This document shows, one piece after another, positions 4,794 through 26,779 of a stretch of DNA of 64,000 nucleotides. The position numbers and the translations under genes are program-made. The stretch lies in the NCBI RefSeq assembly GCF_025141935.1, contig NZ_CP081120.1, positions 1,860,001 to 1,924,000 on the forward strand. The letters are read 5' to 3'. Under the pieces are notes generated by a model that was not told the DNA's origin, did not search any database, and was given only the letters and a program-made list of their open reading frames with translations. How positions within the stretch are numbered: the stretch's first letter is position 1; each line of letters begins with the position of its first letter. The stretch is from Sulfitobacter sp. S190 (lineage in GTDB: Bacteria; Pseudomonadota; Alphaproteobacteria; Rhodobacterales; Rhodobacteraceae).

Positions 4794-5022
4794 AACGTCT
4801 CCTAAAATATTGCGCGACACCGGATGTTTAGGTCGCTGTTGGGGGACGAACGGCTTGGATCACAAAAATGTTCCAAGCCAATTTCAAACAATTTTATTGA
4901 AACCTTACAGTTCAGCGCGTCGGAACACCTGAATTTCACGCAAGTTTCGCGATGCGACAGCTTGACGCAAGATAATTCCGCAAATTTCCCGCTCTCGGAC
5001 ATAAAAAGAGAAGGATTGGCTG

Positions 5023-5051
5023 TTGACGCCCCCGAGCACGCTGAATAATGT
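5023..5051 (+). promoter_or_regulatory. candidate promoter of the ilv leader/operon
   Basis: TTGACG (5023-5028) and TAATGT (5046-5051) are spaced by 17 bp. Transcription from here would start about 25 nt before the leader peptide at 5082. The -10 element is a weak match, so the call is moderate. Confidence 0.45.
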
Positions 5052-5081
5052 CCCCACATGATCTTGAGGAGCTTTAGGACC

Positions 5082-5129
5082 ATGATGGACCTAGTCGTCA
5101 TTGTAGGACACACGCGCATGGACCGGTAA
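5082..5129 (+). CDS. ilv leader peptide (attenuation)
   Basis: A 15-codon open frame encoding MMDLVVIVGHTRMDR, preceded by GAGGAGCTTTAGGACC. Five of its first eight residues are the branched-chain amino acids L-V-V-I-V, the products of the downstream pathway. It sits between a plausible promoter and a strong terminator that precedes acetolactate synthase. This is the classical layout of ribosome-mediated transcription attenuation known from enterobacterial ilv operons: scarcity of charged Leu/Val/Ile tRNA stalls the ribosome in the control codons and favours an antiterminator. It is too short for ordinary gene finders. The peptide itself probably has no other role. Confidence 0.8.
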   Translation: MMDLVVIVGHTRMDR

Positions 5130-5154
5130 CGGTACACCATATTCGAACCCATGC

Positions 5155-5182
5155 GCCCCCGACCAAAATCGGGGGCTTTTTT
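5155..5182 (+). terminator. ilv attenuator terminator with competing antiterminator
   Basis: GCCCCCGA (5155-5162) pairs with TCGGGGGC (5169-5176), followed by six T residues (5177-5182): a strong rho-independent terminator between leader peptide and ilvI. A perfect 8-bp alternative pairing exists between GCGCATGG (5114-5121, inside the leader peptide's last codons) and CCATGCGC (5149-5156). It overlaps the first bases of the terminator 5' arm and would compete with it when a ribosome stalls upstream. Confidence 0.8.
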
Positions 5183-5279
5183 ATGCGCCCAGCACTGCTC
5201 GACCCGCTGCCCGAAATCAGACGTAGAAATGGCCCCGAATGGCCGCAGGCAAATTGCCGCAAAAGAGGACGACACGACA

Positions 5280-7031
5280 ATGACACGCCAGATGACCGGA
5301 GCGAAGATGATCGTTCAAGCCCTGATTGATCAGGGTGTCGATACCGTATTTGGGTATCCCGGCGGGGCCGTCCTACCGATTTACGACGAGATTTTTCAGC
5401 AAAACCACATCAAGCATATTCTCGTGCGCCACGAGCAGGGTGCGGTTCACGCCGCAGAAGGCTATGCCCGCTCGACAGGCAAACCCGGTGTGGTGCTGGT
5501 CACCTCCGGCCCCGGTGCGACCAACGCGGTCACAGGCCTGACCGATGCTCTTCTGGACAGCATTCCGATTGTTGTTCTCACTGGACAAGTGCCGACCTTC
5601 ATGATCGGATCTGACGCGTTTCAGGAAGCGGACACCGTGGGCATCACGCGCCCCTGTACCAAGCATAACTGGTTGGTCAAGGAGACGGACAAGCTTTCGG
5701 GCGTCATCCACGAAGCATTCCACATCGCCACGAACGGGCGTCCCGGCCCCGTTCTGGTCGATATCCCCAAGGACGTGCAATTCGCCAATGGCACGTATGA
5801 GCCAAAGAAACCTTCGGCGTCACATTACCAGCCGCAGCTCAAGGGCGACATGGAAGCGATCACCGAACTGGTCGAAGCAATTGAGAAAGCGAAGCGCCCA
5901 GTATTCTATACCGGCGGTGGTGTCATCAACTCCGGTCCCGGCGCCAGCCAGCTCTTGCGCGAACTGGTCGAGGCGACGGGCTTTCCCATCACGTCCACGC
6001 TCATGGGTCTGGGCTGCTATCCCGCATCGGGTGGCAAATGGCTGGGAATGCTGGGCATGCACGGCACCTACGAGGCCAACATGTGCATGCACGACTGCGA
6101 CCTGATGATCAACATAGGTGCCCGCTTTGATGACCGCATCACCGGTGTGGTCGAGAAATTCAGCCCCAATTCGACCAAGGCACATATCGATATCGATCCG
6201 TCATCGATCAACAAGGTCATTCGCGTCGATATCCCGATCATGGGCGATGTGGGCCATGTGCTCGAAGACCTGCTCAAGGTCTGGAAATCGCGGGGCCGCA
6301 AGACAAACACCGAAGCGGTTGTGAAATGGTGGCGCCAGATCGAAGAGTGGCGCGCGGTCGACTGCCTGAAGTTCACCCAGAAAGGCAACACGATCAAACC
6401 ACAACACGCGCTGGCCCGGCTCGAGGCGCTGACCAAGGACCACGACCGCTATATCTGCACCGAGGTCGGCCAGCACCAGATGTGGGCCGCGCAGTATATC
6501 GGCTTTGAAGATCCCAATCGCTGGATGACGTCCGGTGGTCTGGGCACGATGGGCTACGGCTTTCCGGCCTCCATCGGCGTGCAGATGGCCCACCCCGAAA
6601 GCCTTGTGATCAACGTGGCCGGCGAAGCGTCCTGGCTGATGAACATGCAGGAAATGGGCACTGCCGTGCAGTACAATCTGCCGGTCAAGCAGTTCATTCT
6701 GAACAACGAACGGCTCGGCATGGTGCGCCAGTGGCAGGAATTGCTGCACGGTGAGCGGTATTCACAGTCGTGGTCCGAGGCCCTGCCCGATTTCGTCAAG
6801 CTGGCCGAAGCCTTCGGGGCCAAAGGCATCCTGTGTCAGGACCCCGCCGATCTTGATGATGCAATCATGGAAATGATCAATCACGACGGTCCCGTGATCT
6901 TCGATTGTCTGGTGGAAAAGCACGAAAACTGCTTCCCGATGATCCCCTCGGGCAAAGCCCACAATGAAATGATCATGGGTGAAGTCGATACATCAACCGC
7001 CATCGATGCCGAGGGCAAGGTGCTTGTCTAG
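5280..7031 (+). CDS. ilvI: acetolactate synthase large subunit
   Basis: Thiamine-diphosphate enzyme of 583 residues that condenses two pyruvates to 2-acetolactate (or pyruvate and 2-oxobutyrate to 2-aceto-2-hydroxybutyrate), the first common step of valine/leucine/isoleucine synthesis. Visible are the N-terminal substrate/ThDP domain with catalytic E52 in VRHEQGAVHAAEGYAR, TSGPGATNAVTGL, a central FAD/Rossmann domain, and the C-terminal ThDP domain with LNNERLGMVRQWQ. The metal-binding motif, usually GDG/GDA, reads GEA (E449), an Asp-to-Glu change confirmed in the DNA. The start at 5280 gives the family-typical N-terminus MTRQMTGAKM; upstream in-frame ATGs fall in the attenuator. The small subunit follows after 167 bp. 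Confidence 0.95.
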   Translation: MTRQMTGAKMIVQALIDQGVDTVFGYPGGAVLPIYDEIFQQNHIKHILVRHEQGAVHAAEGYARSTGKPGVVLVTSGPGATNAVTGLTDALLDSIPIVVLTGQVPTFMIGSDAFQEADTVGITRPCTKHNWLVKETDKLSGVIHEAFHIATNGRPGPVLVDIPKDVQFANGTYEPKKPSASHYQPQLKGDMEAITELVEAIEKAKRPVFYTGGGVINSGPGASQLLRELVEATGFPITSTLMGLGCYPASGGKWLGMLGMHGTYEANMCMHDCDLMINIGARFDDRITGVVEKFSPNSTKAHIDIDPSSINKVIRVDIPIMGDVGHVLEDLLKVWKSRGRKTNTEAVVKWWRQIEEWRAVDCLKFTQKGNTIKPQHALARLEALTKDHDRYICTEVGQHQMWAAQYIGFEDPNRWMTSGGLGTMGYGFPASIGVQMAHPESLVINVAGEASWLMNMQEMGTAVQYNLPVKQFILNNERLGMVRQWQELLHGERYSQSWSEALPDFVKLAEAFGAKGILCQDPADLDDAIMEMINHDGPVIFDCLVEKHENCFPMIPSGKAHNEMIMGEVDTSTAIDAEGKVLV

Positions 7032-7198: not shown

Positions 7199-7759
7199 AT
7201 GTCCGCACTAAACCTTAAAAAAGGCTCCACCAGCCATTCCGCCTACAACTTGCGCCCGACGTTCTCGGACACGGTTGAAAGGCACACGCTTGCCGTTCTG
7301 GTCGAAAACGAACCCGGCGTTCTGGCCCGCGTGATTGGTTTGTTCTCGGGACGCGGCTACAATATCGACAGTCTAACGGTCGCCGAAGTGGACCACACCG
7401 GTCATCTGAGCCGTGTCACCATCGTCACTTCCGGCACACCGCAGATCATCGAACAGATCAAGGCACAGCTGGGGCGCATCATCTCGGTGCGTGAAGTCCA
7501 TGACCTGACGGTCGAGGGTGCGAGCGTGGAACGGGAACTGGCGATGCTTAAGGTGACGGGCACCGGCGAAAAGAGGGTTGAGGCCTTGCGGCTGGCCGAC
7601 ATTTTTCGCGCAAATGTGGTCGACAGCACGCTGGAGAGCTTCGTGTTCGAAATTACCGGTGCACCTGACAAGATCGACGCGTTTGCCGATCTCATGCGTC
7701 CGCTCGGGCTGGCCGAAATCGCCCGCACCGGCGTTGCCGCCCTGTCGCGCGGGGACTGA
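7199..7759 (+). CDS. ilvN: acetolactate synthase small (regulatory) subunit
   Basis: Regulatory subunit of 186 residues that activates the large subunit and confers valine feedback inhibition. An N-terminal ACT domain is clear (HTLAVLVENEPGVLARVIGLFSGRGYNIDSLTVAEV), followed by the C-terminal ALS_ss domain (REVHDLTVEGASVERELAMLKV, ITGAPDKIDAFADLMRPLGLAEIARTGVAALSRG). ATG 7199 follows GAAAGGCCCCCAC; the frame is open further upstream but without family similarity. Belongs to the attenuated ilv operon. Confidence 0.95.
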   Translation: MSALNLKKGSTSHSAYNLRPTFSDTVERHTLAVLVENEPGVLARVIGLFSGRGYNIDSLTVAEVDHTGHLSRVTIVTSGTPQIIEQIKAQLGRIISVREVHDLTVEGASVERELAMLKVTGTGEKRVEALRLADIFRANVVDSTLESFVFEITGAPDKIDAFADLMRPLGLAEIARTGVAALSRGD

Positions 7760-24820: not shown

Positions 24821-24897
24821 TGGCGCGGTTGACGGGGCTCGAACCCGCGACCCCCGGCGTGACAGGCCGGTACTCTAACCATCTGAGCTACAACCGC
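24821..24897 (-). tRNA. tRNA-Asp (GTC), copy 1
   Basis: A 77-nt cloverleaf including an encoded CCA. Acceptor GCGGTTG/CAACCGC, discriminator G, D-arm AGCTCAG, T-arm GCGGGTTCGAGCCCCGT, and anticodon GTC at 24863-24861 in the loop CTGTCAC. It differs from copy 2 by one base, in the D-loop (+ strand T at 24882 versus G at 25173). Confidence 0.96.
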
Positions 24898-25111
24898 CCG
24901 CTGCGTCGCTGCATCGTGTGTTGCAGCGCGTTTGAGCGGAATAGGCGATGGTTCTGCATGCGTCAAGCGCTTAAAGCGTGCGATCGGCATTTCTTTAACG
25001 GCATCGTGCAACTGCACTTTTCGTGCAACGCGGCGATTGTCCTTGATCCAAAAACAACAGGCCGATCGGAGCAGGATTGACCCGGTGAGCAACATAAAGA
25101 TGTAAGAAAAA

Positions 25112-25188
25112 TGGCGCGGTTGACGGGGCTCGAACCCGCGACCCCCGGCGTGACAGGCCGGTACTCTAACCAGCTGAGCTACAACCGC
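25112..25188 (-). tRNA. tRNA-Asp (GTC), copy 2
   Basis: A second 77-nt tRNA-Asp with encoded CCA, 214 bp from copy 1 in the same orientation and identical except for one D-loop base. The spacer shows no gene. Probably co-transcribed with the adjacent tRNA-Val. Confidence 0.96.
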
Positions 25189-25217
25189 GCATCTATGGCT
25201 CCCTTCTGGCGAAGGAA

Positions 25218-25293
<76 letters not shown>

Positions 25294-25328
25294 GGTGCGC
25301 GTCTGATAGCCCAAGGTCGCGCGACAGT

Positions 25329-25901
25329 TCAAGCGCTTTTTGTAAGTCTTTTCTGTTTTCCGTTTTCGACATGAAACACCACACCCTGACCACCCCCGAC
25401 GACGCGCAGTGCATCGACGTTTTTGTTTTGCAAAACAATGCGTAACATCCTGCTGGTCAATCCATGGGTCACCAGAACCGCGGGATGTTCCAGCCCTTGC
25501 AGAAATCGGCGGCAGCGCGCTTCGAGTGCTGCAAACCCCTCACCGCCCGGTGCTCTTTCATACAGGTCAAAACCATCGCGCACCGCGTATCTTTTGATGA
25601 GAGGGTCCCGCAATTCTCCGGCCCAATCGCCCACGCCGATCTCGCTCAGGGCGGTGTCGGTGTGAATGGTATCGACGACACCGTTCAACGCCAAAGACGC
25701 CGTATGGAAGGCACGCCCCTGCGGGCTGCTGTAAGCCTCGTAGTCACTAAGCTCGAGACCGGACAAAATATCATTCTGCAGCCGCGCCTGCGCCCTGCCC
25801 CGCACGGTCAGCGGAGAATCGTATCGTCCTTGCAAACGCCCCTGCGCATTCCATGACGTTTCGCCGTGACGCAGGATATAGACGGGTGGATATTGGCTCA
25901 T
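25329..25901 (-). CDS. histidine phosphatase family protein
   Basis: A 190-residue cytoplasmic enzyme of the phosphoglycerate-mutase-like superfamily. The catalytic motif R11-H12-G-E-T15 (YILRHGETSWNAQGRLQGRYDSPLT), YSSPQGRAFHTA, the proton donor region LSEIGVGDWAG, and the second catalytic His in VLVTHGLTSRMLR are all present. It lacks the length of metabolic dPGM and is more likely a broad phosphatase (GpmB/CobC-like); substrate unknown. Its gene ends 35 bp before tRNA-Val(TAC) on the same strand. Confidence 0.88.
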   Translation of the reverse strand: MSQYPPVYILRHGETSWNAQGRLQGRYDSPLTVRGRAQARLQNDILSGLELSDYEAYSSPQGRAFHTASLALNGVVDTIHTDTALSEIGVGDWAGELRDPLIKRYAVRDGFDLYERAPGGEGFAALEARCRRFLQGLEHPAVLVTHGLTSRMLRIVLQNKNVDALRVVGGGQGVVFHVENGKQKRLTKSA

Positions 25902-26086
25902 GAAGACCTGTCTGAAAACCGGATCGCGGCAACGCTGCGCGACACGTTCAGATGGCGCTGTCGCACCCCAAAAGGCAACGAAAAAACTGCGCTTAACGTC
26001 CGACCGATATAATGGCCGGGCGTCTGAAAGACACGTTCCGGACAGCCCGCCACACTCGGTGCATCCCCATTGACCGGAGCCATACG

Positions 26087-26686
26087 ATGAAAAACCTATT
26101 TACCCCCGAAAACGCGGCGATGCTTTTGATCGATCACCAGGTCGGCACGATGAAACTTGCCCGCAGCATCGACCGCGCAGAGCTTATCGCGAACACACGT
26201 GCCCTGTGCCGTACGGCCGCAGAAACAGGGATGCCTCTTGTTCTGACGAGCAGTCAGGAGACGCATTTTCAGGGGATGTTGATCGACGATCTCAACGAAA
26301 TCGCCCCAGAGGCCTATGCCGCGCGTGTCAAACGCCCCGGCGTTGTGGATGCCTGGATGTATGACGACTTCAAGGATGCCGTCTTGGCGACGGGACGCAA
26401 AAAGCTGATCATGGCGGGGCTGACCAATGATGTTTGCACCGTTTATCCTGCCATCAGCGCGGTGGAAGACGGATTTGAAGTGCAGGTCGTCGTCGACGCG
26501 GGCGGCTCCCCCACGCAGGTCGCGGATGAGATGGCCTGCGCCCGGATGTCGGCGAACGGCGTTGTCCTCACCTCGACCAACCAGATCATGGCCGAGTTGG
26601 CGACCGATTGGTCAGCCCCCGCAGGAGCCGCCATCCAAGGCATCATGTACGAAGAAATTCTGAAGCCCCTGGTCGAAGAAGACTGA
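26087..26686 (+). CDS. isochorismatase-family cysteine hydrolase (YcaC-like)
   Basis: A 199-residue cysteine hydrolase with the Asp-Lys-Cys triad: D16 in AMLLIDHQVG, K82 in ARVKRPGVVDAW and C117 in GLTNDVCTVYPA. The sequence around the Cys and the downstream VDAGGSPTQVADEMACARM matches the YcaC subgroup, whose substrates are not settled. ATG 26087 follows CCGGAG at good spacing; the frame is open upstream without similarity. It is a single gene between a phosphatase and tRNA-Val(CAC). Confidence 0.88.
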   Translation: MKNLFTPENAAMLLIDHQVGTMKLARSIDRAELIANTRALCRTAAETGMPLVLTSSQETHFQGMLIDDLNEIAPEAYAARVKRPGVVDAWMYDDFKDAVLATGRKKLIMAGLTNDVCTVYPAISAVEDGFEVQVVVDAGGSPTQVADEMACARMSANGVVLTSTNQIMAELATDWSAPAGAAIQGIMYEEILKPLVEED

Positions 26687-26704
26687 GCTTGCCGTGGGGG
26701 AATG

Positions 26705-26779
26705 TGGTGGGTGATAAGAGATTTGAACTCCTGACATCTTCGATGTGAACGAAGCGCTCTACCACTGAGCTAATCACCC
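26705..26779 (-). tRNA. tRNA-Val (CAC)
   Basis: A 75-nt cloverleaf with encoded CCA: acceptor GGGTGAT/ATCACCC, discriminator A, anticodon stem CTTCG/CGAAG with loop TTCACAT, anticodon CAC. It shares the anticodon stem with tRNA-Val(TAC) 1.4 kb away. It lies 18 bp past the isochorismatase-like gene on the opposite strand. Confidence 0.95.

Follow-up and report, generated by a model that had tools for sequence, protein, structure and literature searches.

The acetolactate synthase genes ilvI and ilvH of Sulfitobacter sp. S190 are very probably (about nine chances in ten) governed by a ribosome-mediated transcription attenuator that responds to the charging of tRNA-Leu, tRNA-Val and tRNA-Ile. 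This reading draws on the parts of the sequence, their conservation, some covariation, codon content and folding with an assumed ribosome footprint; from these we infer the transcription start, leader translation, termination, read-through and starvation response of the attenuator. With it, a large marine family gains a probable common control element for branched-chain amino acids (BCAA), one that has no gathering-score Rfam match in the window (the whole stretch of 64,000 nucleotides analysed, part of a 3.97-Mb genome).

The ilvI leader and its conservation

Direct reading places a 160-base leader in front of ilvI and ilvH, with a 15-codon open reading frame (ORF), a Shine-Dalgarno-like site, five BCAA control codons and an intrinsic terminator. 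The codons of the frame (5082-5129) are ATG ATG GAC CTA GTC GTC ATT GTA GGA CAC ACG CGC ATG GAC CGG TAA. The features, in window coordinates, are as follows.

5023-5028, + strand: −35-like element TTGACG; GTTGAC is identical in 30 of 30 aligned relatives
5044-5052, + strand: putative −10-like element AATAATGTC, reading CATAATGTC in many relatives; a conserved block
5066-5071, + strand: Shine-Dalgarno-like GAGGAG of the leader, with AGGAG-like letters in relatives
5082-5129, + strand: leader peptide ORF MMDLVVIVGHTRMDR-stop, translation predicted from the sequence and relatives
5091-5105, + strand: control codons CTA GTC GTC ATT GTA (Leu Val Val Ile Val); 85 of 88 resolved leaders have five or more Leu, Ile or Val codons in succession
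5114-5121, + strand: antiterminator 5' arm GCGCATGG, pairing with 5149-5156
5118-5140, + strand: hairpin H1, formed locally by 5118-5121 with 5137-5140 and by 5123-5125 with 5130-5132, with a GUAA loop that contains the stop codon; the apical pairs covary
5149-5156, + strand: antiterminator 3' arm CCATGCGC, perfect complement of 5114-5121
5155-5176, + strand: intrinsic terminator hairpin of 8 pairs and a loop of 6 (arms 5155-5162 and 5169-5176), with covariation
5177-5182, + strand: terminator U-tract, six T
5280-7031, + strand: ilvI, acetolactate synthase large subunit (NF006581, 1131.7 bits, cut-off 974), start ATG 5280
7199-7759, + strand: ilvH/ilvN, acetolactate synthase small subunit, putative start (NF008864, 223.6 bits, cut-off 119), presumably in one operon and co-transcribed with ilvI

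The sequence-only reading had described the peptide MMDLVVIVGHTRMDR with its ribosome binding site, a perfect 8-bp antiterminator and a strong terminator behind the leader, and all three are present as described. ATG 5082 is taken as the leader start because a start of the form M-x-x-L stands at the same place in most relatives; an automated ORF rule gave the second ATG, at 5085, for the window. A strict sigma-70 scan over 4850-5350 returned no consensus promoter. A known-class metabolite riboswitch was considered and rejected, as no family of Rfam release 15 reaches its gathering score in the leader. The only gathering-score matches of that release in the window are four tRNA genes (24824-26779, − strand).

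The leader is widespread in the family of the window. A blastn search with 5023-5182 matched leader DNA in 217 of the 295 genomes of the family, and IlvI is present in 287 of them at E values up to 1e-200. A model, R1, was built from 30 leaders matched in this way and finds the leader in 79 of 80 named ilvI loci. These 80 were picked through ilvI, not through the leader, and are the closest relatives (84-93% IlvI identity) rather than a family-wide sample; the closest named IlvI outside the genome of the window are from Sulfitobacter, at 93-91% identity, and the single miss is a Nereida locus (L121). Nineteen further family loci were drawn, 15 from genomes without a blastn leader match and four from genomes with one, and one of them (L047) was left out of the R1 search. 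R1 matched 13 of the remaining 18 (9 of 14 without a blastn match, 4 of 4 with one) and gave no match in five. By eye, a terminator is preceded by a short ORF that has Val, Leu or Ile codons in three R1-negative loci (L044, L050 and L052), and L039, L047 and L053 lack this arrangement. Outside the family, a scan of 59 class loci upstream of ilvI, run without a shuffle control, found both a short ORF and a terminator in nine, three of which (L175, L182 and L184) are convincing by eye.

The frame could be resolved by rule in 88 of 93 R1 matches, the other five being dropped. Leu, Val and Ile, the three products of the pathway, are all present in 84 of the 88 resolved peptides. The longest run of these codons is five in 79 of the 88 and six in another 6. 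In 56 of the 88 runs the codons are three Val, one Leu and one Ile, in varying order (LVVIV, which alone accounts for 47 of 88, ILVVV, VVLIV and others). Such reordering with the composition kept is what selection on tRNA sensing predicts. Rare codons are also favoured: CTA makes up 74 of 117 leader Leu codons (63%) against 32 of 1505 (2.1%) in window ORFs, and GTA 120 of 248 leader Val codons (48%) against 101 of 1232 (8.2%), the reference being 42 long window ORFs taken as genes; part of this enrichment is due to common descent of the codon block. UAG is rare as the leader stop (2 of 88).

These regularities bear on an alternative in which a plain terminator follows a short transcript or spurious ORF, ilvI has its own promoter 3' of that terminator, and there is no attenuation. 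In its favour, the terminator ends about 100 bases before ilvI. Against it, the 88 resolved leaders share the frame, the control codons and the spacing between these codons and the pairing arm. Furthermore, the arrangement of a 10-30 codon ORF, a Shine-Dalgarno-like motif, five consecutive Leu, Ile or Val codons and a terminator has this leader as its single instance in the window and is absent from all 30 first-order Markov resamples of 64 kb. A plain terminator is thus a very improbable account of the region.

Competing pairings and the predicted switch

Folding of 5000-5200 gives z = −2.24, with 5 of 200 shuffles equally good, so that folding energy alone is weak evidence. In the minimum free energy fold, the antiterminator and a shortened terminator form side by side. 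The sequence-only reading had set the antiterminator against the terminator 5' arm; this competition exists, but it covers only the two closing pairs (5155-5156) and not the whole arm. The layout had also been likened to enterobacterial ilv attenuators. The likeness is partial: the leader, its codons, the terminator and the antiterminator agree, whereas no separate 1:2 protector hairpin was seen, and the stop codon sits instead in the loop of a local hairpin. A separate 1:2 hairpin is not found in every attenuator. In the folds, no pairing of 5114-5121 with upstream leader sequence appears, and H1 uses the antiterminator's own 5' arm. One idea is that H1 is a candidate pause hairpin, U5152 lying 12 bases past its base. 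Another pairing was rejected: 5028-5035, whose letters repeat those of the terminator 5' arm, could pair with the 3' arm, but the site lies within the promoter-like spacer, 5' of the likely transcription start.

The alignment of relatives supports these helices to different degrees. The antiterminator is paired in 98.8% of alignment cells, and 4 of its 9 pairs show compensatory changes where shuffles give 0.1, although these come from only 5 cells. Slid controls of the antiterminator reach at most 2 pairs with two-sided change, yet one of them (+2) outscores it in covariation (0.058 against 0.029); its arms are nearly invariant, so most of its pairs can yield little covariation. H1 and the terminator together have two-sided compensatory change in 9 of 15 pairs, against 2.9 in shuffles, and their slid versions score lower on every measure reported. 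Pairing is kept in 88.7% of cells for the basal H1 helix and in 68.5% for the innermost terminator pair. All these counts lean toward the three helices, because the alignment was fitted to a model that holds the antiterminator, apical H1 and the terminator. Of 90 distinct rows, 84 have a GNRA loop in H1, and 83 have the stop codon inside a GUAA or GUGA loop, as at 5126-5129 in the window. In one case, seen by eye, C5115-G5155-C5176 is replaced by U-A-U (L258, genome G180), which preserves both the antiterminator and the terminator pairing; in alignment A4, the pattern C-A-U at 5115/5155/5176 occurs once, in the divergent L051, whose antiterminator has other letters. Aligning relatives had been proposed as the check on the original reading, and it comes out in favour: the leader is found in 79 of 80 loci, its codon composition is kept, and the antiterminator, terminator and apical hairpin covary.

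The near-invariance of the arms invites a different explanation. The terminated leader could act mainly as a stable trans-acting small RNA, comparable to Sinorhizobium rnTrpL, with GCGCATGGG / CCCATGCGC kept for pairing with targets or for a protein. The antiterminator arms are indeed much more conserved than pairing alone requires, a related Rhizobiales leader is filed in Rfam as a small RNA (Atu_C8), and trans action of a trp attenuator RNA has been published (PMC10117765, in the portion available). Each arm base is, however, used in coding and in two pairings, which could explain the invariance. The reordering of control codons at constant composition and the place 5' of ilvI in 79 of 80 loci argue for a translated role in cis. 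As the main function, a trans-acting RNA is therefore unlikely, but the two roles are compatible and not mutually exclusive.

In the attenuation mechanism proposed here, RNA polymerase would start near 5057 and the leader peptide would be translated immediately. When BCAA aminoacyl-tRNAs are abundant, the ribosome would reach the stop codon and cover 5114-5121, and the terminator (5155-5182) would form fully. When Leu, Val or Ile charging is short, the ribosome would stall at a control codon, 5114-5121 would pair with 5149-5156, the two pairs next to the U-tract would be lost, and transcription would read through into ilvI.

A graded picture of this switch emerges from equilibrium folding of the window when the ribosome is assumed to cover 18 bases 5' of the first A-site base and 13 bases 3' of it. 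The predicted probability of the closing pairs is 0.02-0.03 with the A-site at the Leu or first Val codon. It rises to 0.37-0.39 when the A-site holds the second Val codon and to 0.76-0.81 at Ile, and stays at 1.0 from the last Val through the stop, so that the Ile and last Val codons have hardly any antiterminator preference in the model. Without a ribosome the probability is also low (0.25-0.27), unlike that of a clean default terminator. The antiterminated state still allows a 6-pair terminator (−10.9 kcal/mol against −16.1 for the full hairpin), and antitermination must therefore rest on freeing the hairpin from the U-tract. In the relative L116, low values (0.02-0.03) are predicted at two Val codons only, and the effect is absent at Leu.

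A similar leader before a Bcr/CflA transporter gene

When R1 was run over 337 genomes of the class, it matched 17, five in the window's own family and 12 in others. Eight of the 12 matches outside the family, from seven families, precede an MFS transporter gene and not ilvI: all seven with E below 1e-6 and one of the five weaker ones (L073, E 0.0036). The other four (E 2e-4 to 6e-3) look like plain terminators. The gene downstream was not selected by the search. Seven of the eight MFS proteins are 52-65% identical to the eighth (L066), and three of these genes, together with a Roseobacter plasmid gene, exceed the cut-off of TIGR00710 (Bcr/CflA efflux MFS, NCBIfam).

The transporter leader is recorded at loci L063-L069, L073, L230-L234, L241-L243, L246, L252, L253 and L257. 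Named carriers are conjugative plasmids of Leisingera caerulea, Roseobacter denitrificans (pTB1) and Phaeobacter piscinae, and the leader also occurs on multi-megabase replicons of Burkholderia arboris and B. cenocepacia and in two genomes of the own family (G245, L230; G008, L257). On the L. caerulea plasmid (L232, 1590-2742), the leader-bearing gene lies near an annotated chloramphenicol phosphotransferase family protein and GNAT acetyltransferases. At least three consecutive Val codons are found in 17 of 20 MFS leaders, the exceptions being L069, L073 and L241. Among 29 records of MFS relatives, 14 were examined, with the leader in six and absent in eight; four more of the 29 had been chosen earlier for their leader. 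On a tree of 27 MFS proteins, leader presence requires 4 changes, which means that the leader is either old with losses or was gained more than once.

The search was also run in the opposite direction, with models made from transporter leaders: R2 from eight of them and R3 from 12, cut before the terminator so that it could not account for a match. R2 matched 21 of the 337 class genomes at E up to 0.01 (five of the own family, eight MFS carriers and eight weak). Within the own family it matched 156 of 189 genomes with E no higher than 1e-4, counted irrespective of the downstream gene. With R3, 79 of the 80 named ilvI leaders are recovered, none with an E value above 1.3e-5; the window has 9.9e-13, and the best match elsewhere in 82 sources 0.013. 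This likeness is partly selected, because the source leaders were mostly found by similarity to the ilvI leader, through R1 or blastn with the window. Further R2 matches in the own genome and others (L224, E 0.008; L223, 8e-4; L215, 1e-5) look like plain terminators and were rejected. A second match in G126 (L255) adjoins neither ilvI nor the MFS gene by tblastn, and blastn of the L065 leader against plasmids gave no match.

The Rhizobiales form leads to an existing Rfam family. RF02502 (Atu_C8) matches five Rhizobiales MFS leaders (L241 at 348-467, L242, L243, L246 and L253) at 96.9-111.5 bits, against a cut-off of 50, and a short ORF containing Ile, Leu and Val codons can be made out in its consensus. 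We conclude that at these five loci Atu_C8 is the leader of the transporter gene, and an Rfam small RNA family may thus be re-read as a transporter-gene leader. RF02502 has no match at the sixth Rhizobiales MFS locus tested, L240, and in a search of 106 class genomes it gave only weak matches, none over the cut-off, in four genomes (0 of 14 in controls). At L240, on Agrobacterium tumefaciens plasmid pAt2, a TPP riboswitch (418-534) precedes a related 'multidrug efflux' MFS gene. This suggests a thiamine-related substrate for that member, and also that nutrients can control members of the subfamily, which are not necessarily drug pumps.

Atu_C8 shares with the window leader a GCGCAUGGGC / GCCCAUGCGC-like helix, a branched-chain leader ORF and a terminator. 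It differs in being typed 'Rhizobiales sRNA' and in that, in the Rhizobium locus L241, the antiterminator-like helix and the terminator do not overlap; the closing-pair probability there is 1.0 throughout, and no switch is predicted. For the Roseobacter MFS leader L234, the same folding gives 0.44-0.89 before the last Val codon and 0.99-1.0 from it on. The equilibrium model thus favours a switch in the window; its support weakens for L116 and L234 and is lacking for the Rhizobiales form.

These observations point to a single homologous cassette for attenuation, made up of a promoter, a Val-rich peptide, a GGYGC arm, a hairpin whose loop holds the stop codon, and a terminator. It may serve both the acetolactate synthase of Rhodobacteraceae and a Bcr/CflA MFS transporter found in several alphaproteobacterial families, on conjugative plasmids and in Burkholderia, with Atu_C8 as its Rhizobiales version. 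We regard the odds on this proposal as even. The rival is convergence, in which a strong terminator and palindrome-like arms arose separately and the likeness does not reflect common descent. The elements are short and GC-rich, R2 and R3 were bound to resemble the ilvI leader given how most of their sources were found, R2 gives only 17.6-25.0 bits for the Rhizobiales form, which was found independently through its protein, and Atu_C8 only 14.2 bits for the window, below the curated cut-off of 50. Yet the downstream gene, on which the R1 search made no selection, is the same MFS gene at all seven R1 places with E below 1e-6 and at one of the five weaker; R3 finds 79 of 80 ilvI leaders with no terminator in it; and R2 scores the Phaeobacter leader, to which its protein also led, at 59.3 bits. 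Convergence accordingly seems a doubtful explanation.

If the cassette is shared, the likelier direction of transfer is that ilvI in the window's family captured an MFS-type leader, since in the class sample R1 matches at ilvI only in that family, while the MFS form is present in seven other families and in Burkholderia. A shared cassette would also mean that the transporter is switched by the charging of BCAA tRNAs, mainly that of Val. It would then probably be, instead of a constitutive multidrug pump, a carrier of a BCAA-related compound or an exporter of an agent that brings about BCAA starvation or stalls ribosomes. The substrate of this 'multidrug efflux' subfamily becomes testable, as the control codons predict the inducing starvation.

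Relation to known systems

A literature search over titles and abstract openings, with most subscription papers outside it, found no ilvI leader in the window's family and no Bcr/CflA leader peptide; the latter null says little, because the slash in 'Bcr/CflA' is unsearchable and only 'bcr cfla' could be combined with leader peptide. A search by the name Atu_C8 found nothing related.

The alphaproteobacterial context noted by the sequence-only reading is correct but not new. The available part of PMC4117421 describes an attenuator of Caulobacter crescentus ilvBN/ilvIH (Tarleton et al. 1994) that, compared by description and not by sequence, is like that of the window: an alphaproteobacterial acetolactate synthase operon with a leader coding sequence that has tandem Ile and Val codons, and a rho-independent terminator. 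A cis-regulatory element of Sinorhizobium meliloti ilvIH, listed in the section seen of PMC2573895 and credited to Vitreschak et al. 2004, is again similar by description, lying before ilvIH of an alphaproteobacterium and coming from an attenuation survey. Another proposed ribosome-mediated attenuator of Rhodobacterales is the cysS leader uORFC-8-2, which, as far as the excerpt of PMC8632094 goes, differs in its Cys codons, its tRNA-synthetase gene and its structure. For the transporter leaders, a parallel is Bacillus subtilis bmrCD, a drug transporter under ribosome-mediated transcriptional attenuation; bmrCD is an ABC transporter of a Gram-positive bacterium (PMC4191407, accessible text), whereas the leaders here are Val-rich and precede an MFS gene. 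Attenuation of ilv genes in alphaproteobacteria is thus already known, and the mechanism proposed for the window is ordinary, well supported and expected. The surprise lies in a transporter gene sharing it and in how Atu_C8 is re-read.
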